64,000 bases of DNA from Lysobacter sp. (lineage in GTDB: Bacteria > Pseudomonadota > Gammaproteobacteria > Xanthomonadales > Xanthomonadaceae): positions 1,379,444-1,443,443 of the forward strand of contig JABFRN010000001.1 in assembly GCA_013141175.1 (NCBI GenBank), given 5' to 3'. How positions within the stretch are numbered: the first letter of the stretch is position 1; each line of letters begins with the position of its first letter. The notes beneath the pieces are model-generated. The model saw only the letters and a list, made by a program, of their open reading frames with translations. It made no database searches and was not told the DNA's origin. This document shows, piece by piece, positions 1,434 to 16,899 of the stretch. A program made the translations under genes and the position numbers.

Positions 1434-1497
1434 AGAAAGATCCTCTGAGTCGACAATGACCTTCAGTGACACGGCACTGAAAGCGTTTGTATTCGAC

Positions 1498-1890
1498 TCA
1501 GATGATCGGAGGACGGAGCTGGGCTTGCAGAGGAGGTTCTGGCGGCCGAGAACCAGCACCGGACGCGGGCATATGCCCTGTCATGAAAACAAAACAAGCA
1601 GGCACTACAGCGACATCCGCCACCTGATGGCAGGCACCGTGAGAACAACTGCTGGCGTGTGCCGATGGTGTTGGAACCGGATCGTCACCCGTACCCGTTG
1701 ACGGTGGTGCCTTCAGATTGGCGGCATACTCACCGGCCTCCTGACCAAAGCCCAGGTCAGCCATGTCATGACCGACGCAAGCCGCAGCTGCACCAATCTT
1801 CAACCCGAATAGAAGCAACACAAAGACTGCCAAGCGCGTCGAAGTGCGCAGCCGGTTGAGAAGTCGGGCGTTGGCTGGGGGGGCAAACAT
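1498..1890 (-). CDS. CzcI-like small periplasmic metal-resistance protein
   Basis: A 130-residue exported protein encoded 64 bp upstream of the CzcC-like gene on the same strand. The start MFAPPANARLL is chosen because a hydrophobic signal segment (RLAVFVLLLFGLKIGAAAA) follows at the right distance; an in-frame start 14 codons upstream exists but adds nothing recognisable. The mature part has a central Ser/Cys/His cluster (SCSHGACHQ) and a late F-M-T-G-H-M segment, both plausible metal ligands, and ends Pro-rich. CzcI-type proteins sit first in czcICBA operons and are thought to influence metal-dependent expression. The family call is from position, size and signal peptide, not from a diagnostic motif. 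It could also be an unrelated metallochaperone. Confidence 0.5.
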   Translation of the reverse strand: MFAPPANARLLNRLRTSTRLAVFVLLLFGLKIGAAAACVGHDMADLGFGQEAGEYAANLKAPPSTGTGDDPVPTPSAHASSCSHGACHQVADVAVVPACFVFMTGHMPASGAGSRPPEPPLQAQLRPPII

Positions 1891-2119
1891 CCTAGATAGG
1901 CTACAGGCAGATCCGTGCGTTACACAATACACAATTTCGTCGGAAGTAAGGCGTGTCCCGTCCGCAGACGGGTCGCAAGGCCGGGACCGCCCTTTCCAAG
2001 CAGCGCACTGTTACGCTACGCTGCGATCCGGCGTGAGAGAGCGTTTGGATTTCACGTGCTCTGGCTGCGCCAATTTCTTTCGTCGAATCTCTCTCGGACG
2101 GTATTTCCGCTGTCGCAGA

Positions 2120-4972
2120 TCAACGCACAGGCTCGGGTGCCGCAGAGGTTTCTTCCGGCACGTTGCCCGCCAACGCGCGCACCAGTTGGTCTGCGCGGAT
2201 GTACTTCCGCCAGGCGGCGTTGACGTCCTCGAGACTCAACTCGGTGATCCGTTGTTCGAGGGGCGCGTTGATTGCCCGCGCGCCGGTCCGCAGCGTCTGT
2301 AGCTGGCGGCCCAGCAGCAGGCCCGGCTGGGCGGCGAGGCGTCGTTGCTCCTGCAGATATCCGGTCTTGGCCAGCGCCAGTTCGTCAGCGCCAAACCCGT
2401 TGCGCTCGACCATCTCCAACTCATCGGCCAACGCGCTCTCTACGCGCTGGCGATCGCTCACCGCGAAGCTCGCGGAGGCGCGCCACGACGAGCTGGGCGC
2501 GGTGGCGTTCCAGTCGAGCTGGGACCACGCCCCGTAGCTCAGGCCTTCGCGCTCGCGCAGCCGGCGCCAGAGCCGGCCGCTGCCCTGCTGACCGAACATG
2601 CGATTCGCCAGCGCGAGCGCCAGCGCATCCCGCTCCCCCTCGCGCAGCGGCAGGAAGGCGGCCCAGCTCAGGAACGCATTGTCGGTGCCCGAACTCCGCC
2701 AGATCAGCGTTTTGGGCGCAGGCGCCTGCCGCTGTTCGTCGTCGACGAGTGCCGGCGCCCCAGCGCGATCGGCGGCCAACAACGGCTTCAGGTGGCGCTC
2801 CATCGCTTTCGCCACTGCCGCCGCGTCCATGTCACCGACAACGGCCATCCGCACTTCCCGCAGCGGCAGCAGCGCTGCCCTGGCCTGTTCGATGTCGGCC
2901 AGCCCGACGCGCTGCAGCGAGGCCATTTCCTCCTCGATCGTCGGTGCGTAGCGCACGTCGTTTTCCGCGTACGGTTTGCCGTGCCGCGACAGGAGTTCGT
3001 CGAGGCGTGCCGAGGGGTCCTGCGAGGCACGATCGAGCCTGCCCCGCCATTTCCGCTTCTCGCCCTCAAGCGCCGCCTCTTCGAAGCGGCCGGCCTCGAG
3101 CAGCGCACGCACCCGGGCCATCGCAGCATCGAACTGGCCGGTGCTGGTCTGGATGTCGATCAGCAGCTCCTGGCGGAAAAAGCCCACCGTCAATCCGGTC
3201 TCGATGCGGTCGAGTTCGAACTGGAACGCGGGTGCGCCGCCGGGCGTCGCGCGGTACGTACCGAGCATCGCGGCCATCAGGCCTGCGGCGCGCGTCTGCT
3301 CCTGCGATGACGTGGCCGCCAGCATCGGGATCGCCAGCCGGGCGAGCACCGCACCGCCGCGCTGCGGACGTCGCGTGACGGACAGCGCCAGGCGCCGGTC
3401 CGCGAGCATCCTGGTCTGGGGCCGGACTTCGGCCGCGGCATCGAAGGGCGCCGCCAACGTCTTGGCCGGGCGGGTCGCCCCGTTCGCTCCCGCTGGTTGC
3501 TCCGGCAATGCCACCGCACCGGTCGATGCCCGTGCCACCGGTGCGGCCGGGGCGCCGGTGGGAAGCAATGTCACCACCAGCGGCGTGCGGAGCCAGTCCG
3601 CTGCGACCCGACCCAAGTCCTCACGGGCGAGCGCCCGCATGCGCGCATAGTCGGCCAGATGCAGACGCCAGTCGCCGCGACCGGCCGCCTCGGACAGGTC
3701 TTCGGCCAGCCGCTCGGGGTCGTTGAATCGCCGCCGCCATTCCGCCATCCAGCCGTAGCGTGCCTGTTCGACCTGCTCCGGCGTCAGCGCAGCGGCATCG
3801 GCCAACGCCACGCGCAAGGCCTCGGCCACCGCTGCGGGCGCTTGCCCGGCCGCCGGCTGGGCGGCGAACAGCAGGGTGCCGCCGTCGGCCTGCTCACGTG
3901 CCTGTCCCAGCACCCTGGCGGCGATGCCGGCATCGACCAACCGCCGGTTCAGCAGCCCCGACGGCTCGCGCGTCAGGGCGTAAGCCAGCAGCCGCGCGGC
4001 GGCGGCGTCTCCGTCGCGCGCTCCTGGCCCCGGCGTTGCCGCCATGACGATGGGCCCCACGCCCGGCCGCGCCAGCGACAGCGACTGGGCGGTCGCGACC
4101 TCGTGCGACGGCCCCGGGCGGGTCTCTCCAGCGGGCTGCCCGGGTCCCTGCGGCAGGGCGCCGAAGTCCCGCGCGATGGTCCGCAAGGTCTCTTCGGTCT
4201 CGAACGCGCCTGTAACGACCAGCGTCGCCTTGTCCGGCCGATAGTGCTGGGCCCGCAACGCTGCCAGGCGAGGCGCGTCGAGCGATTCGATTTCGATCAG
4301 GCGTCCGATCGGCGCCCTTCCATACCCCTGGCCGGCATAGAGGGTCCACATCGATGCCTCGATCGCCACGCCCAGCGCCGAGCCCTGCGCACCTTGCATC
4401 TCGTTGCGGATCGCCCCGAGTTCGCCCGCCACCTGCCCGGGCTCGATCGCGCCGTCCGCGAGCGCTCCCGCCAGCCATTCGAGGTACCAGCGCTGCACTG
4501 CCGCATCCGCGGCGAAGCTGGCCATGAAGGTGGTCCGGTCATGCGACGTCGTCGCATTGGCGCGGATCCCGCGCTGCGCGATGGCGGCGGATGCACGCCC
4601 CTGGCCCAGGCGCGGCCTGAACATCAGGTGCTCGAGCACATGCATGGCCCCGCTCGCGCCCGCCGGGTCTTGCAGCGCGCCGGCCCGCACGGTGAGTTGC
4701 ACCGCGACGACCGGCTTCGACGCATCGGGCACCAGCAGTACCTGCAGCCCGTTGGGCAGCCGGTATTCGCTGATACCTTCGAGCGTCCGCACCGGAACCG
4801 GCTGCACGACAGCCGCTCCATCCCCTGCGGGAGCGGATGGGGTGACGGCCGACACCGGCAGCGAGGCCAACAGGCCGGCGGCGAGCAGGGCGGCAGCGCC
4901 CAGTCCAACCGTCCACCCGTGGGATCGGGCGCGCGCCCATGGGCGCGACGGCACGGCAAGGTTCAGGCGCAT
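2120..4972 (-). CDS. M16-family zinc metallopeptidase (full-length, two-half)
   Basis: A 950-residue peptidase with an N-terminal membrane segment or signal (about residues 21-43). The catalytic half carries the inverted zinc motif H111-V-L-E114-H115 and the third ligand E191 in N-E-M, exactly 76 residues later, as in the M16 family. A second, non-catalytic M16 half follows (about residues 500-930), so both halves of the clam-shell are in one chain. It is the last gene of the lanthipeptide operon and overlaps the SelO-like gene by 10 bp. M16 enzymes mature several RiPPs, so removal of remaining leader residues after C39 cleavage is a reasonable role here, but it is inferred from context. A general periplasmic proteolysis role is the alternative. 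Confidence 0.87.
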   Translation of the reverse strand: MRLNLAVPSRPWARARSHGWTVGLGAAALLAAGLLASLPVSAVTPSAPAGDGAAVVQPVPVRTLEGISEYRLPNGLQVLLVPDASKPVVAVQLTVRAGALQDPAGASGAMHVLEHLMFRPRLGQGRASAAIAQRGIRANATTSHDRTTFMASFAADAAVQRWYLEWLAGALADGAIEPGQVAGELGAIRNEMQGAQGSALGVAIEASMWTLYAGQGYGRAPIGRLIEIESLDAPRLAALRAQHYRPDKATLVVTGAFETEETLRTIARDFGALPQGPGQPAGETRPGPSHEVATAQSLSLARPGVGPIVMAATPGPGARDGDAAAARLLAYALTREPSGLLNRRLVDAGIAARVLGQAREQADGGTLLFAAQPAAGQAPAAVAEALRVALADAAALTPEQVEQARYGWMAEWRRRFNDPERLAEDLSEAAGRGDWRLHLADYARMRALAREDLGRVAADWLRTPLVVTLLPTGAPAAPVARASTGAVALPEQPAGANGATRPAKTLAAPFDAAAEVRPQTRMLADRRLALSVTRRPQRGGAVLARLAIPMLAATSSQEQTRAAGLMAAMLGTYRATPGGAPAFQFELDRIETGLTVGFFRQELLIDIQTSTGQFDAAMARVRALLEAGRFEEAALEGEKRKWRGRLDRASQDPSARLDELLSRHGKPYAENDVRYAPTIEEEMASLQRVGLADIEQARAALLPLREVRMAVVGDMDAAAVAKAMERHLKPLLAADRAGAPALVDDEQRQAPAPKTLIWRSSGTDNAFLSWAAFLPLREGERDALALALANRMFGQQGSGRLWRRLREREGLSYGAWSQLDWNATAPSSSWRASASFAVSDRQRVESALADELEMVERNGFGADELALAKTGYLQEQRRLAAQPGLLLGRQLQTLRTGARAINAPLEQRITELSLEDVNAAWRKYIRADQLVRALAGNVPEETSAAPEPVR

Positions 4973-6540
4973 GTGAGCTCCGGGTCGGTCAGGTGAATAT
5001 GGGTTTCTTCCGCAACGCCTTCATCGATGAAGGCGGCGATCGCTTCGCGCAGCGCCGGCAGATCCGCAGCGCTGGGATACCGGCCATCCAGGCGCACGTA
5101 GCACTCGTCCTTGAGCCGTTCGCGGTCGAGCCGTATCCGTGGCCTGGTCCAGCGCGCCCGGATCGCCCGGCGTGCCGCGACCGACGCATCCGATGCGTCC
5201 GGCATCACGGCCCCTGCCTCGCTGGCAATGCGCATCAGGTCGGCCTCCAGCCTGTCCAGCGCCGTCGCGCCGGGCATTGCGTGTGCCTGCCACGGCGTGC
5301 CCTCGAAGATCGACCACGCCTTGTGCCGCAATGGACGCAGCCAGAGGTCGAGTTCGCGCGCGAGGGGCGGGCCGGCCGGGCCCTTCAGCAAGGCTTGCGC
5401 ATCGACGTCCGCGAATCCCAACAAGCGCAGCAAGGTCGCGTACATGCCTTCGCCGTAGGCCCGGAGCACCTGGTCGCACGTGCGCGCCCGCCATATCCGG
5501 GCGGGTTCGCCATGGCCTGCGGTGAAGCGGAACCCGCATGCGACGCCATTGACGGTGTCGACGATGTCGCGAAACTCCTCGCCGCTGGGATGGTGTCCGG
5601 ATGCCACCCAATAGCGCGCCAGTGACGGCACCGCGGCGGTCGCGCCGAAGTCCAGCAGCCGGCCGTCGAGGGCGACATTGGAGGAGCTGACGCCCCCGTG
5701 CGGCAGACACAGCAGGTAGGTCGCTGCCAACTGCCGCGACCAACGCGCGAAGCCCGCCGTCAGTTGGTCCTGCAGCGGATCGGTTCCGCCGGCATGCCGT
5801 TCGAGCGCGGCGATCGTGCAACGCACGCGATGCGCATCCGCCAGTCCCGGCAACGCTTCGGTGCCTCGATAGAACGGTGCGCGCTCGAGATGCGCCGGCC
5901 GCAGGAACGCGCGACGCACCAGCAGACAGCAGCGTTCCGGCTTGGGTCCCTGATCGGTCTGCCACACCTGGACCGTGCCGGTCGCAATGATCGCCAGCGT
6001 GCGCACCGCGCCGTATGGCAATTCGCGATGCAGGATCTCGGCCAGCAACGATTCGCGGACGCACTCCTCGAGATACGCGCCGCCCGACGCATGCCCCACA
6101 TCGACGTCGCGGCCGATCAAGGGCGTCCGCCCCACGCCCTTCACGCAGTACGGGCCGATGATCGCAGCGCGACCGCTGCCGCCGTTGGTGCCGATGCCGC
6201 CGCCGCCATAGCGGTCGGCAGTGCCGGTCCGGTCGGGCGTCTCGCCATCCGCGCTGACCTTGTACGCGCAGGCCGCGAGCAGGTATGCGGTGTAGGCGGC
6301 GCGGTCGCCGTTCAACCGCGTCCAGGCCGGATCGGCTTCGGCTTCCTCGGTGTTCAACCAGAGCAGCGTTGCGCCCTGCAGCCTCGTCAGCGGCACCGGC
6401 ACATGACCATTCACCGGATCGAGCACATCCACCGCGACTTCGGCGTGTTGGCCAGCATCGAACAGGTTCATCGGGCGCGTCGACTCCAGGAGTTTCAGGG
6501 GCTCGGGGATTTCAGGGGAGATGCGTAAAGGGATAGCCAC
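4963..6540 (-). CDS. SelO/MchC-like protein (pseudokinase-fold, YdiU family-like)
   Basis: A 525-residue protein with landmarks of the SelO (YdiU) pseudokinase family, whose characterised members transfer AMP to proteins: K-G-V-G-R-T-P near residue 134, an R-E-S-L-L-A-E-I-L helix soon after, and the late catalytic-loop equivalent H-G-G-V-S-S-S-N followed by L-D-F-G near residue 290 (compare HGVMNTDN...DYG in SelO). MchC of class IIb microcin operons belongs to the same superfamily and is needed to finish the microcin post-translationally. The gene starts 3 bp after the HlyC-like gene and overlaps the M16 gene, so it is part of the operon. No signal peptide, so cytosolic. A role in modifying the lanthipeptide is inferred. 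The exact chemistry (AMPylation or a ligation intermediate) is open. Confidence 0.7.
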   Translation of the reverse strand: MAIPLRISPEIPEPLKLLESTRPMNLFDAGQHAEVAVDVLDPVNGHVPVPLTRLQGATLLWLNTEEAEADPAWTRLNGDRAAYTAYLLAACAYKVSADGETPDRTGTADRYGGGGIGTNGGSGRAAIIGPYCVKGVGRTPLIGRDVDVGHASGGAYLEECVRESLLAEILHRELPYGAVRTLAIIATGTVQVWQTDQGPKPERCCLLVRRAFLRPAHLERAPFYRGTEALPGLADAHRVRCTIAALERHAGGTDPLQDQLTAGFARWSRQLAATYLLCLPHGGVSSSNVALDGRLLDFGATAAVPSLARYWVASGHHPSGEEFRDIVDTVNGVACGFRFTAGHGEPARIWRARTCDQVLRAYGEGMYATLLRLLGFADVDAQALLKGPAGPPLARELDLWLRPLRHKAWSIFEGTPWQAHAMPGATALDRLEADLMRIASEAGAVMPDASDASVAARRAIRARWTRPRIRLDRERLKDECYVRLDGRYPSAADLPALREAIAAFIDEGVAEETHIHLTDPELTCA

Positions 6541-6543
6541 GGA

Positions 6544-7494
6544 TCAAAGGGCGTCCAGCGCCGCCACGCCGGTCCCCGTCAGCACCCGACGCAGTCCGGT
6601 ATGCAGCGCAGCGGCTTGCGCCGCGAGCGCCGACTGCGCGCCAGGAGCGGACGCCGCGCCTGCACAGGTCGCCGCCAGCACGTCGCCTTCGGAGTAGCAG
6701 GCCGGGCACAGCGCGGCGGCGCCGTGCTGCTGGAGCCGTGCCAGACCGTCGTCGGTGAGCAAGCCGTACGTCAGGAACGCCTCGGCGGCGCCATCGGGCG
6801 CGCGCACTTCCACGTATTGGCCCAGCCGCAGCGGCGTCACGAGCGCGTCGAGCAGTTCGGCGGGCTTCCGGTCCGCATGGACCGGATTGGCGCTCGCGAG
6901 CAGCAGCCAGTCGCCAAGCCGCCGGGCCTGGTCGAGCATTTCCAGGGCCTCGCCGCGCAGCTGCCCTCCACCGCCGTGCGCCAGGAAACCGCTGGCGGAT
7001 GCCGAAGGCACTGGCGCAGCGCTCAGGCGGAACGGCACCCGCAGCCGCTTGGCGGACCGCCAGCCCCGGTGCATCCGCGCATAGGCGATTTCGGCGACTG
7101 GCGACAGCGGCCCGCCGACAGCGGCACGCCGCAGCAACGCCCGCAGACCGACTTTGTGCAGGGCGAAATGCGCAATCCATGGCTCACCGCTCGCCGCGCC
7201 CGCCAGCTCGGCGGCATCGGCGCCGGCCAGCAGCGCTGCTTCGCCGGCCTCATCCAGTCGCTTCCACAGCAACGCGCCGGCCGGCCGGCCGTAGGTGTCG
7301 AAGTAGACCTCCACGCGCCCCTCGGCAAACGCATCGCAGAGTTGCCCGACATGCCAGCCGACACCGTGCGCGCCGGGCGGATTCTGCCCGGCCAGGCGCG
7401 GCAGCATCAGCCCGAGCAGCTGGCGCAGGCAGGCCGCCTTGTCCGAGGGGGCATCCAACGCGCGGCAGAGTTCCTCGAGTGTGTAGATGGTCAT
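6544..7494 (-). CDS. HlyC/RtxC-type acyltransferase-like protein, tandem domains (MchD-like)
   Basis: 316 residues from the start MTIYTLEEL, which has GAGGA a few bases upstream; longer starts read into non-coding sequence. Two HlyC-like segments can be seen. The first includes W-H-V-G-Q-L-C-D-A-F-A-E-G-R-V-E-V-Y-F-D followed by G-R-P-A-G-A. The second includes L-L-L-A-S-A-N-P-V-H, then G-Q-Y-V-E-V and A-F-L-T-Y-G-L-L-T, matching the S-x-L-H ... Q-Y-x-L ... W-A-x-L-S pattern of RTX-toxin acyltransferases, including the expected His. Microcin H47/M MchD proteins are related and work with MchC. Here the gene directly precedes the SelO/MchC-like gene, reproducing that pair inside a lanthipeptide operon. 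The donor and acceptor are unknown. Confidence 0.62.
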   Translation of the reverse strand: MTIYTLEELCRALDAPSDKAACLRQLLGLMLPRLAGQNPPGAHGVGWHVGQLCDAFAEGRVEVYFDTYGRPAGALLWKRLDEAGEAALLAGADAAELAGAASGEPWIAHFALHKVGLRALLRRAAVGGPLSPVAEIAYARMHRGWRSAKRLRVPFRLSAAPVPSASASGFLAHGGGGQLRGEALEMLDQARRLGDWLLLASANPVHADRKPAELLDALVTPLRLGQYVEVRAPDGAAEAFLTYGLLTDDGLARLQQHGAAALCPACYSEGDVLAATCAGAASAPGAQSALAAQAAALHTGLRRVLTGTGVAALDAL

Positions 7495-7627
7495 GCAGTC
7501 CTCGGCGCATCGAGACGGCCCGCGATCGCTGGAGGTGGCGCAGCCGGACCGACGGCCGACACCGGGCATCGTCCGCGCGGGCTGCCGGATGCATGGCGGG
7601 CATGGTCGGTGGACATTGGCGAAGTCT

Positions 7628-9724
7628 TCATTCGCGCGACAGGGCCTCCACCGGGCTCAGCGCCGCTGCGCGTTTGGCCGGCCAGGTTCCGGACAGGATT
7701 CCGACCAGCGCGGAGACGGTGAATGCGGCCACGAGGGCCGCCAGATCGACTTCCAGCCGCATCCGCGATTGGGCTGCGTTGGCGATCAGTGCGGCAACCG
7801 CGCACAGGACCAGGCTGATGACGCCACCGGCGCCGCACAGCAATACCGACTCGACCAGGAATTGGCTCCGGATGTCGGACTGCCTCGCGCCAATGGCCAT
7901 GCGGATTCCGATCTCGCGGGTGCGCTCGGTGACCGACACCAGCATGATGTTCATGATCCCGATGCCGCCCACCAGCAGCGCGATCGCCGCCACCAGGCCG
8001 AGCACCAGCGCCAGCACCCCCATCACTTCGCGCAGCGCATTGATGTCGCTGGCGGCGTTCCAGGTCTCGAAATCCTCCGCGCCGTGCAGTGACTTGAGCC
8101 GTTCGGTGATGCGCCGCCGGAGGTTCTCCGCCTGTTCGGGATCGGTGATGACAACGGTGAACTCGCGGGTCTCGAAGCGCGTGTCGAGCTTGGCCGCAAA
8201 GGCGGAGTGCGGAATCAGGAGTTCGCCGGTCGACTCGCGCCCGAAATTGCTGCCCGAGGCCGGCTCGAACAGCCCGATCACGGTGAACGGCAGCAGGGCG
8301 GGCGAGGGTGGCGCCGGGTCGCTTGCGATACCGGACATGCCGGCTTCCGCCGTGGGCGAAGACTCCACGGTCTCCGCCGACAGGAAAATGGTGCGACCGA
8401 TCACCCGCTCGCCTGGCCGGAACAGCGCTTCGCGGATCTTGTGGTCGATCACCACCACCTGCGCACCGTTGTCGAGTTCCACCGGCACGAACGTCCTGCC
8501 CTGCACGATGCTCAACCGGTTCACCTGCAGCGTCGACGACTGCGCGCCATGGACTTTGACGCGCGCGTCCTTCGCGCCCTGGCGCGCAGCCATGTCGCTT
8601 TTCATCTGGATCTGGACCGTCTTCACGCCATCCAGGCCGCGTACCGCATCGAGGTCCGAAGCGCTGAATGGCTGCGGCTGGCTACCGGGCGGCAGACGCG
8701 GGTTTCCGGTCCAGACCTTGATGCTGCTGTCGAAGAGCGCGCCCACTTCGTTGTCGATCGAGTGCTGCACCGCACCGCTGAGGGTCACCACGACCACCAC
8801 GGCCGTGATCCCGATGCAAACCCCGATCAGCGACAGCACCGAGCGCAGCCTGTGCCCGAAGATCGCCTGAATCGCGGAGCGCAGCGCCTCGCGCGCGCGG
8901 CCGACCGCCTGTCGCCAGGCCGGGAGCAACCGCGTGACCCTCGCGGCGGAGGCGGCATCGTCCCAGGCGAACAAGGGTTCCGCGTCGGCGGCGGACACCG
9001 GCGCGATGGCGGCGTCCGGCGAACTCGATACCGCCTCATTGCGGCGATCGGCGACGATGCGGCCGTCGGAGATCTCGACGATGCGTTGCGCGCTCGCGGC
9101 AAGCCCTCGCGCATCGTGGGTGACGACGATGACGGTATGTCCCTGCCGGTTCAGCGCTTGCAGGATCCGCAGCATCTCCGCGCCCGACTGCGAGTCGAGC
9201 GCACCCGTCGGCTCGTCGGCGAGCAGCACCTGGCCACCATTCATCAGCGCGCGGGCGATGGACACCCGCTGTTGCTGGCCGCCGGACAGCTCGGTCGGCT
9301 TGTGCCGCAGGCGGTCCCCGAGTCCGAGCCGCTCCAGAAGCGTTCCCGCCCGCCTCGCGCGCTCGTCGGCCGGGACGCCCGCATAGATGGCGGGCAGCGC
9401 CACGTTCTCGATGGCGTCCTGGTGCGGCAGCAGGTTGTAGCGCTGGAAAATGAAGCCGAACGTCTCGCGCCGGATCCGGGCGAGCTCATCGGCATCGAGG
9501 CCGGCGGTGTCGTTGCCATCCAGCAGGTAGTGGCCGGCGCTGGGGCGGTCCAGGCAGCCCAGCAGGTTCATCAGCGTGCTCTTGCCGGAGCCCGAGGCAC
9601 CGACGATGGCGACGAACTCCCCGCGTTCGATCGTCAGGTCCACGTCGACGAGCGCGCGCACTCTCTGCGTGCCGACGGCGTATTCGCGCGACACGCCGCG
9701 CAGCGCGATCAGCGGCGTGCTCAT
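7628..9724 (-). CDS. MacB-type ABC exporter (ATPase fused to permease)
   Basis: 698 residues. The N-terminal ATPase (about 1-235) has Walker A G-A-S-G-S-G-K-S-T, signature L-S-G-G-Q-Q-Q-R and Walker B L-L-A-D-E-P. A linker leads to the first transmembrane helix (near 285-310), a large periplasmic domain (about 310-560), and three C-terminal helices with the FtsX-like segment I-G-I-M-N-I-M-L-V-S-V-T-E-R-T-R-E-I-G-I. This is the MacB layout: a mechanotransmission ABC protein that drives substrate from the periplasm through an adaptor and TolC. Its start overlaps the stop of the adaptor gene (ATGA). In this operon it probably exports the mature peptide or gives self-immunity. No outer-membrane channel is encoded in the operon, so a chromosomal TolC would be needed. 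Confidence 0.92.
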   Translation of the reverse strand: MSTPLIALRGVSREYAVGTQRVRALVDVDLTIERGEFVAIVGASGSGKSTLMNLLGCLDRPSAGHYLLDGNDTAGLDADELARIRRETFGFIFQRYNLLPHQDAIENVALPAIYAGVPADERARRAGTLLERLGLGDRLRHKPTELSGGQQQRVSIARALMNGGQVLLADEPTGALDSQSGAEMLRILQALNRQGHTVIVVTHDARGLAASAQRIVEISDGRIVADRRNEAVSSSPDAAIAPVSAADAEPLFAWDDAASAARVTRLLPAWRQAVGRAREALRSAIQAIFGHRLRSVLSLIGVCIGITAVVVVVTLSGAVQHSIDNEVGALFDSSIKVWTGNPRLPPGSQPQPFSASDLDAVRGLDGVKTVQIQMKSDMAARQGAKDARVKVHGAQSSTLQVNRLSIVQGRTFVPVELDNGAQVVVIDHKIREALFRPGERVIGRTIFLSAETVESSPTAEAGMSGIASDPAPPSPALLPFTVIGLFEPASGSNFGRESTGELLIPHSAFAAKLDTRFETREFTVVITDPEQAENLRRRITERLKSLHGAEDFETWNAASDINALREVMGVLALVLGLVAAIALLVGGIGIMNIMLVSVTERTREIGIRMAIGARQSDIRSQFLVESVLLCGAGGVISLVLCAVAALIANAAQSRMRLEVDLAALVAAFTVSALVGILSGTWPAKRAAALSPVEALSRE

Positions 9725-10917
9725 CCCGCCTCCGGTACCGCCTCGTCGCCCGGCGCCGCAGGTGTGTCGCGCGTCTGCTGGGCGCCGTCCGCAGGCGAAA
9801 GCAGCACCCGCTCGCCGGCCCGCAGTCCTTCCAGCACCTGGGTGCGGGTCGCATCCTGCAGACCGATGCGCACCGAGCGGCGCTTGGTGCCGCCCTCGGC
9901 GGTCCAGGTGAACACCTCGTAGCGGCCATCGTCGCGGCGGTCGCCCAACGCGATCGACGGGATCGTCGGCGTGGCATCGATGGCGCCGCTCTCGATGAGC
10001 ACACGCACCGTCATCTGCGGCAACAGGACCCGGCCCGGGTTCTCGACCTCGAACAGCACGTTGTAGAACGACGCGTTGCCGCTCTTCTCCGGCACCGGCT
10101 GGATCACACGCACGTGGCCCCGCAGCGGCTGGCCCAGGCCGGACAGCGTGGTGAAGGAGGCCGCTTGGCCGACCTTGACCTTGAGCACGTCGGCCTCGGC
10201 CACCTTGGTGCGCACGGTCATGCGATCGATGTCGGCCAGCGTCAGCAGCACCGGGGTGGTCTGGCTGGCGTTGACGGTCTGTCCCTGCGCCACCACGATG
10301 TTGACGACAACGCCATCCATGGGCGCGGTGATCGCCGTACGCGACAACGCCAACCGGCGCTTGGCCAGCTCGGCATTGAGTCGGTCGAGCGTGGCGAACC
10401 GCCCCTTGTAGTCGGCGCTCAGGCTGCGCAGCTCGGCTTCCGCGTCATCCAGCGCAGCCTGCGACACCAGGCGGCCCTCGAACAGCTGGCGGTAGCGGCG
10501 GGCGTTGGCCTCGGCACGCTGGCGCAGTGCGTTGGTGGATTCCATGGCGCTGCGCTGCTCGGCGACGGCGGCTTCGGCCACCTGTACATCGCTCTGGGCG
10601 GTATCGGGATCGATGCTGACCAGCAGCTGGCCCGCGCGCACGGTCTGGCCGAGCTCGATGTGGATCGCCCTCACCTGGCCGCTGACCTGGGCGCCGACAT
10701 CGACCTCGGTGCTTGGCGTCAGCACGCCGGCGGCCTGCACCATCTGCCGCACGCCGGCGGTGGTGACCTCCGCGGTCTCTGGCGGCTCCGCGGAATCCGA
10801 ATCGAGCAGCGACATCGCAGCCGCGATGGCCGCGGTCGCAGCGACAGCGACCCAGAAGAGTCGGCGCGGCCGGAGCCAGGCGCGCCAGCGGGAGGGGCGT
10901 GGGTCGGAGGTCATCAT
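9721..10917 (-). CDS. MacA/HlyD-family periplasmic adaptor
   Basis: 398 residues with a single N-terminal membrane anchor (about 22-40), then the membrane-fusion order: lipoyl half (V-L-T-P-S-T-E-V-D-V-G-A-Q-V-S-G), a coiled-coil hairpin (about 100-190, V-A-E-Q-R-S-A-M-E and R-L-N-A-E-L-A-K-R), the second lipoyl half with I-T-A-P-M-D-G-V-V, then beta-barrel and proximal domains. It links a MacB-type inner-membrane ABC protein to a TolC-type duct. The gene overlaps the C39 exporter gene upstream and the MacB gene downstream by 4 bp each, so the three are translationally coupled. Confidence 0.9.
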   Translation of the reverse strand: MMTSDPRPSRWRAWLRPRRLFWVAVAATAAIAAAMSLLDSDSAEPPETAEVTTAGVRQMVQAAGVLTPSTEVDVGAQVSGQVRAIHIELGQTVRAGQLLVSIDPDTAQSDVQVAEAAVAEQRSAMESTNALRQRAEANARRYRQLFEGRLVSQAALDDAEAELRSLSADYKGRFATLDRLNAELAKRRLALSRTAITAPMDGVVVNIVVAQGQTVNASQTTPVLLTLADIDRMTVRTKVAEADVLKVKVGQAASFTTLSGLGQPLRGHVRVIQPVPEKSGNASFYNVLFEVENPGRVLLPQMTVRVLIESGAIDATPTIPSIALGDRRDDGRYEVFTWTAEGGTKRRSVRIGLQDATRTQVLEGLRAGERVLLSPADGAQQTRDTPAAPGDEAVPEAG

Positions 10918-13079
10918 GCGGTCGAAAGCTCGGCGAGTGCGGCGGTGCCGCCTTCAAGGGGGGACAGGGTGCCACCATCCAGCCGCAGCACGCGATGGGC
11001 ATCGCGGATGGTCGCGGGGCGGTGGGCGACGACGATCCTCGTCAGCGCCATGGCGCTGAGTTCGCGGCTGACGATCTGCTCGGCGACCAGGTCGAGGTGG
11101 CTGGTGGCCTCATCGAGCACCAGCACACGCGGCTGGCGATAGATCGCGCGGGCCAGGATGATCCGCTGCCGCTGGCCACCGGACAGGCTGCTGCCGAGGT
11201 CGCCGACCTCGGTGTCGAAGCCCAGCGGCAGCTGTATCACGTCATTGAGGATGCAGGCCTTGCGCGCGGCGTCCTCCATGCGGGCGGTGTCCGGTTCGGC
11301 CTCGAAGAAGCAGATGTTCTGCGCGACCGAGCCCGACAGCAGCAGATCGTCCTGCATCACCGCCGCCACCGCCCTGCGGTACGCAGCGATCCCCGAGGCC
11401 TCGATGGGCTTGCCTTGGTACAGCACTGCGCCGCGCGTGGGCGGCATCAGCCCGAGCAGCACTTTGAGCAGTGTCGACTTGCCGGAGCCGCTCGGACCGA
11501 CGATCGCCAGCATTTCGCCCGCGTCGACGCGCAGCTGCACGCCGCGGAGAATCCACGGTTCGGTGTCGGCGTAGCGGAACCAGACATCGCGCAGCTCCAA
11601 GGTCGGCGAACCGCCAGCATCGCAGTCGCCCGACGCATGCGCAGGCACCGTTCCGGGCGTCGACGCGGCCTCGTCCGGCACCTCGGCATCGACGCACTCG
11701 GGCGTTTCATCGGCGATATCGGCCAGACGCTCGAAGTGAAGCGTGAGCATGCGGAAGTCGCTGGCGTGATCGATGAAACGGCTCATCCTGGCGGTGAACT
11801 GGGCCTTGTAGGCCACGAAGGCGACCAGCATGCCGACCGTCATCCCCGCGCCCGGCGCGATCACCATCGCGGCGCCGAAGTAGAACACGGCGACAGTCTC
11901 GAGGCCGAAGATCAACGTGCTCAGGGCACCGAGCGTGCTGGTGAGCGTCGCGACGCGCGTGCGCCGCTCGCGCACCTCGCCGGCCAGCACCGCCCAGCGC
12001 GCGCCGCGTTCGCGCTCGACACCGAACAGCTTTAGCGGGGTGATCGCGCGCAGCGTCTCGACCAGGTGCGCTTGCTCCTTGCCGCTGAAGGCGAAGCCCT
12101 CCTCCGACGCCTGCAGCATCGGTTGCCAGGTCACCCAGCGCACTGCGGCGTAAGCGCCCACCGCCAGCACCACGATACCCGCGAGCAGCGGCGAGTAATG
12201 CAGCATGATGGCCAGCGCCGCCAGGCCGAACAGTGCGTCCAGCACCGCCTCCAGCGCAGTGGACGTGAGCGTGCGGCGGATATCCTCGGTGGCGTTGAAC
12301 CGGCTGATCACGTCGCCCAGGTGGCGATGCGCGAAAAAACGCACCGGCAGCCGGATCAGATGATCGAAGATGCGGCGCTTCCATTCGAACGAAAGCGTTT
12401 CGCCGAAGCGCACGGCGAGACGGCCGCGAGCCCAGCCGAGCATGGACTGGAGCGCGAAGAACGCAGCGAACGTCAGCGCAAGCACGTTCAACAGCTCCAC
12501 CTGCTTCTGCCCGATGACGCGGTCCACCACCCATTGGCCGAGCAACGGCGCCGTGAGCGCCGCCACCTCCAGCCCGAGCGAGATCAGCAGCAACAGCCCG
12601 ACCGAGCGGCCGAAGCCCGGAGTCGCCGCAACGTAGCGCCGCAGGGTCAGGCTGGGCGGTATGCGGGTCAGCGTCGGCTCGCCATCGGGCCACAGCTCCA
12701 TGGCATAGCCGGTGAAACCGCGCGCAAGCTGCGCCGGGGTCAGCACCCGGCGACCCACGGCGGGATCGAGCACGACCACATCGCCCCGACGGCCGACCGA
12801 CTGCAGCACGACGAAGTGGCGGTGCTCCCAGTGCAGGATGGCCGGCAAGCGCAGCTCGCCGAGGTCGGCCGGTGCCACCTCCACCGCTTGCGCGGCGAGC
12901 CCCAACGCGCCCGCGTCCTGCAACAGTCGCGCGAACGAGGTGCCCCGACTCGCCGATGGCAGCTGCCGGCGCAGGTCTCGAAGCGTGAATCGACGGCCAT
13001 GGGCGGACGCCACCATGGCCAGTGCGGCCAAGCCGCATTCGCCGGACTCGGCCTGCCTGACAAGCCGTACGCGCGTCAC
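10914..13079 (-). CDS. C39 peptidase-containing ABC exporter (LanT-like)
   Basis: 721 residues combining three domains. The N-terminal C39 peptidase (about 1-130) keeps the oxyanion Gln9, catalytic Cys15 (Q-A-E-S-G-E-C-G), His88 in H-R-H-F-V-V-L and Asp105 in V-L-D-P. Six transmembrane helices follow (about 160-440), then an ATPase with Walker A G-P-S-G-S-G-K-S-T, signature L-S-G-G-Q-R-Q-R and Walker B V-L-D-E-A. Such exporters cut leaders after a double glycine and move the peptide across the inner membrane. The precursor encoded two genes upstream ends its leader in R-G-G, a direct match. The start overlaps the LanKC stop (ATGA). A short Pro/Asp-rich insert (around residues 460-490) precedes the ATPase. 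Confidence 0.93.
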   Translation of the reverse strand: MTRVRLVRQAESGECGLAALAMVASAHGRRFTLRDLRRQLPSASRGTSFARLLQDAGALGLAAQAVEVAPADLGELRLPAILHWEHRHFVVLQSVGRRGDVVVLDPAVGRRVLTPAQLARGFTGYAMELWPDGEPTLTRIPPSLTLRRYVAATPGFGRSVGLLLLISLGLEVAALTAPLLGQWVVDRVIGQKQVELLNVLALTFAAFFALQSMLGWARGRLAVRFGETLSFEWKRRIFDHLIRLPVRFFAHRHLGDVISRFNATEDIRRTLTSTALEAVLDALFGLAALAIMLHYSPLLAGIVVLAVGAYAAVRWVTWQPMLQASEEGFAFSGKEQAHLVETLRAITPLKLFGVERERGARWAVLAGEVRERRTRVATLTSTLGALSTLIFGLETVAVFYFGAAMVIAPGAGMTVGMLVAFVAYKAQFTARMSRFIDHASDFRMLTLHFERLADIADETPECVDAEVPDEAASTPGTVPAHASGDCDAGGSPTLELRDVWFRYADTEPWILRGVQLRVDAGEMLAIVGPSGSGKSTLLKVLLGLMPPTRGAVLYQGKPIEASGIAAYRRAVAAVMQDDLLLSGSVAQNICFFEAEPDTARMEDAARKACILNDVIQLPLGFDTEVGDLGSSLSGGQRQRIILARAIYRQPRVLVLDEATSHLDLVAEQIVSRELSAMALTRIVVAHRPATIRDAHRVLRLDGGTLSPLEGGTAALAELSTA

Positions 13080-15847
13080 CGCGATGGTTCCTGCCCGGCA
13101 AGCGCACTCGGCGACGGGGCTTCGGCCGGCAGCAGTTCATCGAGGCTGAAGTGGAACGCCTCGCGGCCATGCAGCAGACGATCCAGCAACAGGGCGACGC
13201 CCGCAGTGCCATCGATGTAGGTCGCGGAGACGGTACCGCCCAGCCGGGCGGGCATTGCCGCGCCGCCGTGGGCGGCGACGCGGAAGTGACGCAGCGCCCC
13301 GGCGGTGCGCCAGGCCAGATCGGCATAGTCGGGACGCGCAAGGAAGGTCGCCGCGTCGAGCAGGCAGTGGGTCAGGCCCGCCAGCCCGGGGCCCAGTCCG
13401 GCACAGACGGTGTAACGCTGCGCCACGGTCGGCAGCGCTTCATGGATGAACTGCTCGAGCGCGGCGTCGCCGGTGAGACGGTGCAGCCGCAGCGCGACGC
13501 TGACGATGCCGGCCGTGCCCACTTCCAGATAGGGGTAGATGATGCTTGCATCGCCGCCCGTGGCCTGCTTCGGGAATCCGATCGAAACGCCGACCTTTCG
13601 GGAAAAGCCCAGATCGTGGCGCAGCCCGGCGAGCGCGGTGTCGAGCAGAACGGGGTCGCCCAGCGCGCAGTACGCGTAGGCCAGGAACAAGGCGATCCCG
13701 GTCGCGCCGTCGTGCAGACCGATCCGCAACGGCTCGCCGCTCGATTCCGTGGCCCCGGGCCAAGCCACGGTGGCGCCCTTCCATCGGGCGTCCTCGACCA
13801 GCACCGCGCAGATCTCGCGAACGCGGCGCAATGCGAGCTCGTCGCCGGTGCGCCGCCAGAGGCGCAACGACACCAGCCCGATCCCCGCCAATCCGTAGCC
13901 GAGCGAGCAGTCCGCGTACAGCAGCGGATGGTCGTCGCAGGCGGCCAGCAGCGTGGTGGCGGCCAGGTCGTCGCCCGCCTCCATGCAGGTCCAGGCACCG
14001 CCCACCAGCCCGTTCAACAAGCCGGGGGTCTCGGCTCCGGCCAGCAATCGTCGGTACACATGTCGGGCAAGGTCCCGGCCTGTGGGCATCCCCAACCTGC
14101 ACTGCACGAAGGCGATACCGGCGAGGCCGTGGTCGAAGGCGAGCAGTTTGTCCTCGTGGCCGGGATCCATCCCGAACAGCGGCTCCGCACGCGACAGGTC
14201 GACGTGCTCGCGCAGGAAGCCCGAGAGGTCGGCGAACAACGCCTGCAATTCCGCGCGCTCCGAATGTCGCGGCGCATCTTCCATCGCATGCGCGCGCGTC
14301 GCGTCGCTTCCGCGCAACAGCGCAAGCGCGTCCTGCAGGCTTTCGGCATCACCGGAAAGCAACCGCTTCGACGCGGCACCGTACGCGGGATCCAGACCGT
14401 AGTCCCGCTCGAGCGATCCGAACACCAGGTCGGCAAAGCCGTCCACAAGCGGCAGGTTGCAGGCGCTGGGGCAGAGCATCGCCAGCAGCACCGCGCCGAT
14501 GCCGATCACGTCGTCGCGCAGTTCCGCGACGGGACGGTTGAGGCGTTCGTTGAATGCGTAGCCGGGAGTGAACGCGTTGTGGCCCCGGTCGATGGCCGGG
14601 CGGAACGCGGTCTCGAAGTCGATCAGCACGAAGCGGCCGGTCGACTCGTGTTCGATGATGTTGTTCGTTGAAACGTCGCCATACACGACGCCGCGCGCGT
14701 GCATCGCCTGGACCTTGCCGATCAGATCGATGGCGACGCGATGCGCCAGTCCGAACCATGCGCCCAGGTCGGCTGCGGTCGACTGCGAATGCAGCGTCGC
14801 GCATTTGCCGACGATGATCTGGCGCAGGCTGCGCCCCGGCACATGGCTGATGACCAGGAACGAATGGCGCCATTCCTCGAAGAAATCGATGGCGCGCGGC
14901 GCAAGGTCCAGCCCGTCGAGCGTGCGAAGGACTTCGTATTCGCGCCGCCGCCGTACGACGGCATCCTGGCCATGGAGGTCGGGATCGGTGAACGGACGCG
15001 CCTCGCGCAGCACGAGCTGCTCGCCGCTCTCGCGGTCCCGCGCCAGATACACACCGCCGATGTTGCTCTGCTTCAGCACGCCGAGCACTTCGTAGCGACC
15101 GTTCAGCAGGACCGGACCTGCGACATCTTCCGACGGATCTTCCGTCCCGCTTGCCGGCGGGCCGTCGGCCGTCTCCGTGGACGCGTCCGCATCGAGGACG
15201 CAGGACGGCGTGCGCGCGAACGGCGGCACGACGAAGTTGGGCAGCCGCTGATCCTCGACGAAGCGGTAGTTGCCGTCCAGGACCAGGCTCTTGCGCTCGT
15301 GGAAGACGTTGACTTCGGAGAAGTTGTGGAAGCCCCCGTAACGGTAGGACAGCACCGACGAGTCCTTGTACGGGCTGTCCGAAAGGACGTAGGGGCCGCG
15401 CAGATCGCCGCAGGCGGCGTGCAGCGTCTCCAGCAGTTCGCCGAACAACTCGTCCGACGAAGGATAGATGGTGATGAACTTCCCGCCGGTTTGACGCGGG
15501 ACGTTCTTGGACAGCAGGCGCAGATGGCGCGCAGGGTCCGCGGCGAACTTGAATTCCGTCTGTCGCGCAGGCGCGATGGCGGTGACGATCTCGAGCGCGC
15601 GGACGGCATCCTCGAGCGTTGCGGAGAGATGGATCTTCCAGCCCTGGGTGAGACGACTGGGGATCGGGCTGACCACCTGGGTCCACATGTGGCCGGTCAG
15701 GAGACGCCAACGCCGCGGCAGGCGCGGCAGCACTACCGATCGGTAGTCTGCTTCCGGTTGATAGGCGGTATCGGGTTGATGGAAGAGCTGAACGGGGTGC
15801 GACATGCGGTACGACTCGGCGGCACAGTCATCGATAGGCCACGACAT
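13076..15847 (-). CDS. Class III lanthionine synthetase LanKC
   Basis: Up to 923 residues. The N-terminal lyase region (about 1-220) shows G-W-K-I-H-L-S-A-T, G-K-F-I-T-I-Y-P, G-P-Y-V-L-S-D and Y-R-Y-G-G-F. The kinase (about 245-510) has a glycine loop, the catalytic segment V-V-Y-G-D-V-S-T-N-N (Asp near 391) and L-I-D-F-E (Asp near 409). The rest is a LanC-like barrel of repeated G-x-x-G segments. No Cys-His-Gly or Trp-Cys-Tyr-Gly zinc site is visible (G-P-G-L-A-G-L stands where C-H-G-x-A-G is expected), which points to class III rather than class IV. It would phosphorylate and eliminate Ser/Thr in the precursor and cyclise to Cys. An in-frame start at 15805 (MSHPVQLF) is equally possible; neither start has a good ribosome site. 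It lies between the precursor and exporter genes. Confidence 0.88.
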   Translation of the reverse strand: MSWPIDDCAAESYRMSHPVQLFHQPDTAYQPEADYRSVVLPRLPRRWRLLTGHMWTQVVSPIPSRLTQGWKIHLSATLEDAVRALEIVTAIAPARQTEFKFAADPARHLRLLSKNVPRQTGGKFITIYPSSDELFGELLETLHAACGDLRGPYVLSDSPYKDSSVLSYRYGGFHNFSEVNVFHERKSLVLDGNYRFVEDQRLPNFVVPPFARTPSCVLDADASTETADGPPASGTEDPSEDVAGPVLLNGRYEVLGVLKQSNIGGVYLARDRESGEQLVLREARPFTDPDLHGQDAVVRRRREYEVLRTLDGLDLAPRAIDFFEEWRHSFLVISHVPGRSLRQIIVGKCATLHSQSTAADLGAWFGLAHRVAIDLIGKVQAMHARGVVYGDVSTNNIIEHESTGRFVLIDFETAFRPAIDRGHNAFTPGYAFNERLNRPVAELRDDVIGIGAVLLAMLCPSACNLPLVDGFADLVFGSLERDYGLDPAYGAASKRLLSGDAESLQDALALLRGSDATRAHAMEDAPRHSERAELQALFADLSGFLREHVDLSRAEPLFGMDPGHEDKLLAFDHGLAGIAFVQCRLGMPTGRDLARHVYRRLLAGAETPGLLNGLVGGAWTCMEAGDDLAATTLLAACDDHPLLYADCSLGYGLAGIGLVSLRLWRRTGDELALRRVREICAVLVEDARWKGATVAWPGATESSGEPLRIGLHDGATGIALFLAYAYCALGDPVLLDTALAGLRHDLGFSRKVGVSIGFPKQATGGDASIIYPYLEVGTAGIVSVALRLHRLTGDAALEQFIHEALPTVAQRYTVCAGLGPGLAGLTHCLLDAATFLARPDYADLAWRTAGALRHFRVAAHGGAAMPARLGGTVSATYIDGTAGVALLLDRLLHGREAFHFSLDELLPAEAPSPSALAGQEPSR

Positions 15848-15858
15848 GAATGTCGTGG
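15839..15858. promoter_or_regulatory. 20-bp palindrome over the upstream LanKC start
   Basis: Two perfect 9-bp arms (ccacgacat / atgtcgtgg) separated by 2 bp. It covers the first candidate start codon of the LanKC gene (15847), so in RNA it would sequester that start and in DNA it could be an operator. If translation begins at 15805 it lies in the leader instead. Function is inferred from placement only. Confidence 0.4.
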
Positions 15859-15891
15859 ACGCGGCATATCCGGTCGGTGGACGTCAGGAAA

Positions 15892-15915
15892 GCCATTGGC
15901 GGCGCCGCCAATGGC
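15892..15915 (-). terminator. Perfect 24-bp palindrome between precursor and LanKC genes (attenuator candidate)
   Basis: Two 12-bp arms (gccattggcggc and its complement) with no spacer, starting 11 bp after the precursor stop codon. On the transcribed strand it is followed by only three T residues, so complete termination is unlikely; partial termination or protection of the precursor mRNA 3' end is more plausible. Such intercistronic hairpins are common in RiPP operons, where far more substrate than enzyme is needed. Confidence 0.6.
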
Positions 15916-15926
15916 CCTCTTTTGAA

Positions 15927-16112
15927 TCAGCGGCAGCTCTGGCTGGAGGTGCTCCATTCGCTGCTGCCGACGCCACCGCAACCGCTGCTCCAGGTGCTCC
16001 AATCCATCGGCGATGCATCCATGCCGAAGGCTTCACCACCGCGGATGTCATTCAGTTTCTGCAGGGCGAGAACCTTCACCTTCTGGGCCTGTTGCGAGAC
16101 TTCATTCTTCAT
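15927..16112 (-). CDS. Lanthipeptide precursor peptide (LanA)
   Basis: 61 residues, with a strong ribosome site AAGGAG 7-8 bases before the ATG. The leader (1-26) is amphipathic (V-K-V-L-A-L-Q-K-L-N-D-I) and ends in R-G-G, a double-glycine site for the C39 exporter. The predicted core (27-61) is rich in Ser, Thr, Trp and Gly with only two Cys (45 and 60). It contains two copies of one pattern, W-S-T-W-S-S-G-C (38-45) and W-S-T-S-S-Q-S-C (53-60); each includes S-x2-S-x2-C, the labionin-type arrangement used by class III enzymes. Ser51-x2-Ser54-x5-Cys60 is a second possible register. The gene heads the operon and lies next to the LanKC gene. The rings and cleavage point are inferred. Confidence 0.85.
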   Translation of the reverse strand: MKNEVSQQAQKVKVLALQKLNDIRGGEAFGMDASPMDWSTWSSGCGGVGSSEWSTSSQSCR

Positions 16113-16899
16113 GGAATTGCTCCTTGGTATATGAGGCGTTGAGAAAACGAATGGAGCGAAAGCTCCATCGGTTGGCATGGACGCGCCAACGCGGGGCAGC
16201 AGATCGACGGTGTCGGTCCGCTGGCATCAGGTCAGGAGAGAATCAACTCGGGAGGACTTCAATTCGTTGCGACAGTCGACCTTCGCAAGCCAGCGTGCTT
16301 GGCGGTGAAACGGGTCGACTCAAGACGGTAATTCATCGCATTCATCCCTAAATGTTCTAGAGCAACGCAGCTCTTGGGCAGTAGCACCCATCCTTCTTCG
16401 GAGGACCGGCCCGATCATGCTCGGAGCCGGCCCTGCGGAATTCTTGCAGCCCGAGCATAGGAAATTTGAACAGCCGCTACAAGGGCTGTGGGCCGAAAGC
16501 TTGACGGGGCCCGTCCGGGGCGATCCGCCCGGGGCGAATCGCCCGCACGCATCAGCGGGATCTTCGGGCCGTACATCACGGCAACCACGGGTGCATGCGA
16601 ACGCCGACAGACCGGGTCCGCAGACTGCGTCCGTGCCCTGGCGCCAGACGGATATCTTCCTCGCGATGGAGGCCCGATCGTCCAACCAGCGCCTCGCCGG
16701 CCTGATCGGATCCGATCGCATCCACACCACACCGTCCTTGCGGCGTTCGAGCACGACGCGAGCCATGGGGCGACTGCACTCGTCTCCCGCAAGCGGGACG
16801 CGACGGTACCGGCTCCTCCCCGCGACTTGAAACCGCCCGAATCGCGCCCATCCTTGCGCCATCGCCAGACACGCATTCACACGCAAGGACACCCTACGG
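16113..16899. other. Intergenic region between the lanthipeptide operon and htpG
   Basis: About 790 bp without a gene I can support; reading frames here have no ribosome site and no recognisable product. It must hold the divergent promoters for the precursor operon (minus) and htpG (plus). No good -35/-10 pair was found for either. The htpG-proximal part is GC-rich with imperfect repeats of gggcgat/atcgccc around 16518-16546. Confidence 0.5.
16151..16168 (-). promoter_or_regulatory. Small hairpin in the precursor 5' leader
   Basis: Perfect 7-bp stem (atggagc / gctccat) with a 4-base loop, about 40 bp upstream of the precursor start. It could stabilise the leader mRNA or be a protein site. 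Nothing else identifies it. Confidence 0.3.

Follow-up and report, generated by a model that had tools for sequence, protein, structure and literature searches.

Why would an operon for a class III lanthipeptide also encode relatives of the proteins that modify siderophore microcins? The locus that raises this question lies in a 64,000-nucleotide stretch of Lysobacter sp. DNA (GenBank assembly GCA_013141175.1, contig JABFRN010000001.1, positions 1,379,444 to 1,443,443), called here the window, from a genome that consists of one contig of 4,155,120 bases. It is a single run of eight minus-strand open reading frames (ORFs), from position 16112 down to 2120, with all frames open. Their predicted products are a precursor peptide, a class III lanthionine synthetase (LanKC), a C39 peptidase-containing ABC exporter, a MacA/MacB-like pair, an HlyC/MchD-like protein, a SelO-superfamily protein resembling MchC and an M16 metallopeptidase. 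By analogy with a known microcin pathway, the run is probably a single operon whose product, a class III lanthipeptide, would undergo a further modification of microcin type, in which the C-terminus of the peptide is activated and joined to a partner.

Class III lanthipeptides, such as labyrinthopeptin, are labionin or lanthionine peptides made by LanKC enzymes. The initial annotation of the window had named a LanKC here, and this identification holds. The predicted protein of 923 amino acids carries RamC_N (157.7 bits), Pkinase and LANC_like domains, all above their Pfam cut-offs, and it matches the model NF038151. The lyase lysines and the kinase motifs GDVSTNN and DFE are conserved in an alignment with 18 relatives. 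In a tree of 20 rows, from which a broken relative (L147) was dropped and to which two Deinococcus rows were added, it joins the LanKCs of two other Xanthomonadaceae loci (L141 and L143; L numbers denote loci and G numbers genomes) with support of 100/100, followed by the two Deinococcus LanKCs at 98/98. Domains, model match, motif alignment and tree together rule out a kinase/cyclase of another kind. The same annotation held that LanKCs occur mainly in actinobacteria and firmicutes, and this needs to be modified. At E 1e-30 a LanKC was found in 17 of the 297 family genomes that were sampled, the window's own genome included, so LanKC alone is not unusual there. Class III clusters have also been reported from Lysobacter (PMC11451712) and from Pseudomonadota (PMC9576775).

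What would this LanKC act on? The predicted precursor has a leader of 26 residues, MKNEVSQQAQKVKVLALQKLNDIRGG, with Gly-Gly at residues 25-26, and a core, EAFGMDASPMDWSTWSSGCGGVGSSEWSTSSQSCR, that contains two S-x-x-S-x-x-C motifs. The leader includes the stretch K-V-L-A-L-Q, which we take to resemble class III leaders, and the class III lanthipeptide model NF038154 matches the peptide with 25.0 bits (cut-off 22). The core has ten Ser, two Cys and no Lys and ends in S-S-Q-S-C-R, that is, in a terminal Arg one residue beyond the last Cys. Its calculated monoisotopic mass is 3659.43 Da unmodified and 3587.39 Da after four dehydrations of 18.01 Da each. An 18-nt direct repeat, spaced at 45 nt, in the precursor gene points to an internal duplication. 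When the core was shuffled 200,000 times, two S-x-x-S-x-x-C motifs arose in 607 of the shuffled sequences and two W-[S/T]-T-x-S-x-x-C motifs in none.

Relatives bear out the earlier proposal that this precursor is real. Short peptides adjoining LanKC in 24 other LanKC loci were scanned for the pattern W-[S/T]-T-x-[S/T]-x-x-C. The form W-S-T-x-S-x-x-C stands beside all five of the LanKCs nearest to the window's by BLAST score among the 24 compared (in score order L141, L187 from Iodobacter, L143, L157 from Deinococcus sp. QL22 and L158 from D. gobiensis). It occurs twice in the window, L141, L143 and L157 and once in L158 and L187, and the Deinococcus precursors carry a class III lanthipeptide annotation. 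These five related precursors have 6-11 residues after the last Cys, compared with one in the window's. The motif beside related LanKCs rules out a chance ORF. Neither of the two findings named beforehand as refuting the initial annotation, a kinase/cyclase other than LanKC or a precursor lost from otherwise identical loci, was observed; no otherwise identical locus turned up. The scan gave no credible match beside the other 19 LanKCs. Its remaining matches, at L016, L047, L136, L145, L154, L169/L183 and L189, look spurious by eye, and L-x-L-Q peptides with different cores occur in LanKC loci L173-L175. Judged from its sequence, the window locus would count as a class III lanthipeptide cluster, having both a three-domain LanKC and an adjoining precursor of class III type. 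A separate observation is that class III precursors with W-S-T-x-S-x-x-C form a family spanning Deinococcus, Iodobacter and Xanthomonadaceae.

The microcin side of the question begins with the MchC-like protein. It matches SelO with 33.1 bits (cut-off 22.8), and a tblastn search with it on plasmid records found 21 records. Some of these, from Salmonella and Pantoea, carry genes annotated as MchC; others, from Vibrio and Photobacterium, have SelO-family genes that adjoin genes for toxin-activating acyltransferases. The nearest relative among those compared, in G976 (L184), is 44.5% identical. An AlphaFold model built from a 40-row alignment (predicted local distance difference test score, pLDDT, 85.1; predicted template modelling score, pTM, 0.88) has nine PDB matches at E <0.001; eight bear the name YdiU or SelO, and the title of the ninth is 'uncharacterized protein'. 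Of the 40 aligned MchC proteins, 39, 38, 40 and 40 conserve Lys134, Glu163, Asn288 and Asp297, respectively, which we take to correspond to active-site residues of SelO. Sequence and model thus place the predicted protein in the MchC/MceJ subfamily with a SelO-superfamily fold. An ordinary housekeeping SelO is ruled out by its relatives, those found being of MchC type. PDB sequence searches gave two chance-level matches with one of the two tailoring proteins and none with the other. MchC has been described as a distant SELO subfamily and MchD/MceI as HlyC-like (PMC3281104).

The second tailoring protein is HlyC-like and has two domains. A profile of 49 MchD proteins matches it twice, at 2.4 and 15.4 bits (E 2e-8 with the protein searched alone). 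The full-length protein aligned poorly and the two domains were therefore aligned separately; both align weakly to MchD, with 8-20% identity. HlyC proteins have a catalytic His/Asp pair, and some divergent MchD rows are, by eye, also without the His. Domain 1 was modelled separately, from an alignment with 17 MchD rows, with pLDDT 80.4. This model has three PDB matches at E <0.001, all of them chains of 4WHN, a toxin-activating acyltransferase; GNAT proteins come next. The HlyC-type fold predicted for domain 1 and the adjoining MchC gene indicate a relative of MchD/MceI. Sequence, fold and the order of the genes all support the kinship of both tailoring proteins with the microcin pair, as first proposed. 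The plain HlyC label has to be qualified, as the protein has two domains and falls below the Pfam cut-off (see below). The two-domain form of MchD is also found in L184. In Albitalea terrae (L047:4152-7445) a single open frame combines a SelO-like domain (19.7 bits, under the cut-off of 22.8) with HlyC and erythromycin-esterase domains. Such a fusion suggests that MchC and MchD act together.

How might these proteins work together? With the gene identities, the layout, the conservation of the core motif, the fold and kept residues of the MchC-like protein and the HlyC-type fold of domain 1 established by sequence comparison and predicted models, we infer the reactions, their order, the acceptor and any bioactivity as follows. 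LanKC would bind the precursor via its leader, phosphorylate and eliminate Ser/Thr of the core and close both S-x-x-S-x-x-C units into labionin or lanthionine rings. The MchC-like SelO-fold enzyme would then activate the C-terminal carboxylate of the peptide with ATP to give an acyl-adenylate, a route reportedly described by Nolan and Walsh. Its two-domain HlyC-like partner would pass the peptidyl group to an acceptor hydroxyl or amine, much as MceJ/MceI do with microcin E492 and a glucosylated siderophore. From its sequence, the C39 exporter is expected to cleave after Gly-Gly and export the product. MacAB, with its MacB-like transporter, may serve export or immunity, and the M16 peptidase may trim or clear the peptide, in processing or self-protection.

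Activation of the C-terminus of the modified core, and its transfer, are expected of the pair by analogy with MceJ/MceI, which act as a complex in joining salmochelin to Ser84 of microcin E492 (PMC6071977). Two observations in favour are that C39 exporters form a cluster present in 44 of 66 MchC loci and that the HlyC-like and MchC-like genes adjoin in the window. Further modification of the lanthipeptide, as the initial annotation had suggested, is what the gene content would imply. A more specific version, to be held tentatively, is that LanKC forms two labionin rings and that the MchC/MchD-type ligase joins the C-terminal Arg, which directly follows the last ring, to a small molecule such as a siderophore, sugar or lipid for entry into target cells.

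Lanthipeptides enter Gram-negative cells poorly, a problem that Trojan-horse conjugation would address. If the proposal is true, a lanthipeptide with closed rings can be a substrate of an MchC/MchD-type ligase, and two peptide-antibiotic pathways that have been treated as separate become linked. In that case MchC/MchD would ligate peptides at their C-terminus as a portable enzyme pair across classes of ribosomally synthesized and post-translationally modified peptides (RiPPs). The operon would also offer a compact system for the chemistry of SelO-fold MchC proteins.

What if the MchC/MchD-like pair acts on the same peptide in another way, with no outside cargo? It could AMPylate or fatty-acylate side chains or the N-terminus, or close an intramolecular ester from the C-terminus to one of the core Ser. 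AMP transfer is the activity of SelO proteins and acyl transfer that of HlyC proteins, and the fold matches of both window proteins are consistent with such activities. The ten Ser of the core are in keeping with this alternative as well. So is the content of the genome. The operon has no cargo-making gene, and in the genome there is no IucA/IucC gene and, among 24 matches, no EntE-type gene over the cut-off, so that the known kind of siderophore cargo has no evident source. The genome has 12 condensation-domain matches, 11 of them over the cut-off, which means that nonribosomal peptide synthetase-type genes do exist there; condensation domains lie near 0.87, 1.11-1.13, 2.06 and 3.17 Mb. However, the MchC-like protein groups with MchC proteins, and the characterised MceJ/MceI pair is a C-terminal ligase (PMC6071977). 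The core also has no Lys, which rules out its plain lysine acylation. Action without cargo is therefore rather unlikely, and C-terminal ligation to a partner is preferred.

The missing IucA/IucC and EntE-type genes also weigh against the preferred reading, as do several other observations. On the lanthipeptide side, LanKC scores 541.6 bits with NF038151, below the curated cut-off of 575, has Arg in place of the usual beta-3 kinase Lys (likewise in 4 of 18 relatives) and sits on a long branch in the tree (1.61, compared with a median of 0.5). NF038154 gives the L141 precursor 18.6 bits, below its cut-off, and the L143 precursor no match, so that only the window's passes of the three tested. On the microcin side, the HlyC Pfam match is 18.8 bits, below the cut-off of 25, the MchD-profile match in domain 1 is as low as 2.4 bits, and the structural match covers domain 1 alone. 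By eye, the HlyC-like domains are also without residues common in single-domain MchD proteins. The operon has no glycosyltransferase, whereas 20 of those 66 MchC loci have members of a cluster that includes annotated family-2 glycosyltransferases. Lastly, no closely similar locus was found among the genomes sampled.

The eight-gene layout stands as it was first described, with overlaps of 4, 4, 4 and 10 bp at four of the seven gene junctions. The features are listed in Table 1. The HlyC-like and MchC-like genes are 3 bp apart, the precursor and LanKC genes 79 bp, and the gap between the MacB-like and HlyC-like genes is 58 bp (133 bp with the later HlyC start). A ribosome-binding-site-like AAGGAG lies before the precursor gene at 16125-16120. 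The inverted repeat downstream of the precursor gene could form an attenuating hairpin, by which the precursor would be expressed above the enzyme. A sequence scan found no sigma-70-like promoter for the operon. Fur-type iron control upstream was rejected, as the best match to the Fur-box consensus is 10/19 and the shuffle average is 10.4.

Table 1. Coordinates of the operon features in the window, with the basis of each assignment.
Feature	Position	Strand	Basis
Precursor peptide, 61 aa	15927..16112	-	NF038154 match; motif common to related LanKC loci; AAGGAG upstream
Perfect 12-nt inverted repeat	15892..15915	.	Between precursor and LanKC genes
LanKC, class III lanthionine synthetase	13076..15847 (alternative start 15805)	-	NF038151, RamC_N, Pkinase, LANC_like; alignment; tree
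C39 peptidase-containing ABC exporter	10914..13079	-	Peptidase_C39, ABC_membrane, ABC_tran over cut-off; exporter tree
MacA-like periplasmic adaptor	9721..10917	-	Profile matches
MacB-like ABC transporter	7628..9724	-	ABC_tran, MacB_PCD, FtsX over cut-off
Two-domain HlyC/MchD/MceI-like acyltransferase	6544..7569 (alternative start 7494)	-	HlyC; MchD profile; domain 1 model
SelO-superfamily MchC/MceJ-like protein	4963..6540	-	SelO; MchC relatives; model
M16 metallopeptidase	2120..4972	-	Peptidase_M16 and M16_C over cut-off

Are LanKC and MchC linked anywhere else? Besides the window's own, 71 distinct MchC loci were assembled: 5 from plasmids, 49 from a collection of genome contigs that was scanned, 10 from the family and 7 from the order. 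L094, L100 and L178 were dropped as duplicates of collection loci, and G646 (4,806 bases extended) was left out. The collection scan relied on two short peptide patterns and missed MchC loci that the family search found. MchC is present in 14 of 297 family genomes and 16 of 398 order genomes, samples that overlap and that both count the window's own genome. MchD-profile matches occur in 66 of the 71 other MchC loci. The LanKC profile at E 1e-3 has no match in these 71, nine of which are shorter than 12 kb, with flanks of about 10 kb at most. Conversely, six-row MchC and MchD profiles at E 0.01 found nothing in 18 LanKC neighbourhoods (17 from 16 family genomes and one from the order). Larger profiles found nothing in 24 other LanKC loci, that is, those 18 together with L157, L158, L187 and L173-L175, the last three being 5.6 kb long. 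Among the genomes sampled here LanKC-MchC linkage is thus seen only in the window. These tallies are of samples, and records close to the window's own genome may be missing from some collections. Class-wide searches, in which the best 2-4 candidates per genome were scored, found the own genome alone, both for MchC (1 of 369 at 1e-8) and for LanKC (1 of 369 at 1e-30), in contrast with the family samples. None of ten other genomes of the same genus has both parts, G006 having two LanKCs of other branches and G009 an MchC.

Genomes that carry MchC were also searched as wholes. There are 67 MchC-bearing genome handles, with three genomes represented twice. At E 1e-15 the LanKC model has matches in 27 of them (controls, 6 of 14), for the most part to kinase domains, and five exceed the LanKC cut-off (G631, G715, G772, G789 and G923). 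In these five, LanKC and MchC are either on different contigs or over 1 Mb apart. LanC-like genes were found in 12 of 60 MchC-bearing handles (L039 lay outside this search), none seen to overlap the MchC locus. The idea that a LanC or LanKC gene lies just outside the fetched MchC flanks was rejected after 15 LanC places had been traced with no linkage seen. Ten of them (L106-L115) showed no overlap with MchC loci by blastn, and eight larger stretches (three places in G737, and G747, G742, G720, G721 and G508) had no MchC match. The place in G631 is L141 itself, the G715 contig differs from that of L042, and the second place in G730 (C33, from 19883) lies beyond the 11,573 bases of the MchC contig. 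The places in G740, G734 and G744 and the first in G730 were judged by blastn alone, which sees linkage within about 11 kb.

Genes of 66 MchC loci were clustered, a set with two duplicates, with L044 that has no MchC call and with labels taken from annotation or sequence. Besides the C39 exporters (44) and the family-2 glycosyltransferase-like genes mentioned above, HlyD-like (38) and radical-SAM-like (16) clusters emerged. The precursor candidates in MchC loci are Gly-rich double-glycine peptides, found with a loose pattern that also admits many chance ORFs. In L021, L022 and other MchC loci, many from Vibrionaceae, a radical-SAM-like gene accompanies Gly-rich VDGGG peptides, and these may be further hybrid RiPP types.

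Perhaps, then, the run is not one unit but two: a lanthipeptide cluster (precursor, LanKC, C39 exporter and MacAB) followed by an HlyC/SelO/M16 unit with another target. The MacB/HlyC-like gap falls at the proposed border, MchC/MchD and LanKC adjoin in no other locus examined, and in the five MchC-bearing handles noted above a full LanKC lies at another place in the genome. Yet all eight genes are tightly spaced on the same strand, and other MchC/MchD pairs accompany C39 exporters and double-glycine peptides. When the minus strand of 2000-16900 was scanned with a loose pattern for further double-glycine ORFs, eight matches came up, of which by eye the known precursor alone is credible. Two separate units are improbable, and a single operon remains the preferred reading.

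The exporter adds a historical aspect. In the exporter tree, the window's C39 exporter does not group with those of L141 and L143. It groups with exporters from L101 (an MchC locus of the same genus), the G747 LanC locus, a Duganella radicis genome and the Albitalea MchC locus, with support of 97/98 and 95/96; branches are long, the window's own end branch being 2.26. The grouping is a weak hint that LanKC and precursor came from one source and the exporter and MchC/MchD from another. Could the cluster then be decaying, or so recently assembled that it has no active product? The long end branches of LanKC and exporter would fit, as would the ten same-genus genomes without both parts. However, the eight frames are open and closely spaced, LanKC, M16 and the SelO-like protein retain their motifs, and the ring motifs of the precursor are exact. 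The M16 protein, for example, has HVLEH at residue 111 and Glu191; its N-terminal segment is signal-like. An inactive cluster is thus very improbable, and a functional operon is preferred. M16 matches occur in two of the 71 other MchC loci, L184 and L069.

Other genes lie on either side. Upstream, htpG is divergent and begins at 16900. Downstream, 560 bp past the M16 stop, is an outer-membrane efflux gene (156-1559, minus strand). This outer-membrane factor was rejected as a ninth operon gene in view of its distance and of the CzcB-like start that follows it (read by eye); the two read as a metal-efflux operon without relation to the lanthipeptide locus. Close to the operon on the htpG side (18911-20866, minus strand), a gene encodes 651 residues that include a phospholipase domain of Tle1-like type (PF09994) and, at the C-terminus, an X-Tfes XVIPCD domain (PF20410); the product looks like an interbacterial secretion-system effector.

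How does the window compare with known systems? It shares with class III lanthipeptides a single protein that unites a RamC_N lyase with a kinase and a LanC-like cyclase, the match to the class III precursor model and the S-x-x-S-x-x-C motifs. It differs from them in the extra MchC/MchD-like pair, MacAB and M16, in the C39 exporter and in a core that ends one residue past the last Cys. The clusters at L141, L143, L187, L157 and L158 have LanKCs 34-38% identical to the window's and the same core motif but no MchC or MchD match. Unlike the window, L141 and L143 have a protein of 260-269 amino acids and an HlyD before the C39 exporter. The former, which has no Pfam match, lies between LanKC and HlyD (L141:7562-8371 and L143:7826-8608).

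The class IIb siderophore microcins (MccE492, H47 and M) share the HlyC-like and SelO-like pair, a double-glycine leader and a C39-type exporter. However, the window peptide has two Cys, a 26-residue leader and a terminal Arg rather than Ser, and its operon has LanKC, no glycosyltransferase and a two-domain HlyC-like protein. Class IIb peptides are characterised in PMC11634061 by a Ser-rich C-terminus ending in Ser, fewer than two Cys and a leader whose final GG or GA falls among the first 15 residues. A fourth published criterion is an immunity ORF with a transmembrane segment no more than 200 bp from the precursor, for which no search was made. None of the first three features is found in the window peptide, and classification as a class IIb microcin was rejected on these three. 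G976 (L184) has the nearest MchC among those compared, with a two-domain MchD and an M16 gene beside it. It has no LanKC, and it has glycosidase- and glycosyltransferase-like genes as well as HlyD- and C39-like genes (labels other than C39, M16, MchC and MchD being read from sequence). In line with the initial annotation, no description of a LanKC and MchC/MchD gene set was found in the open-access literature searched. The LanKC of lanthipeptides and the MchC/MchD of microcins are each known, and it is their pairing that is new among the material searched.

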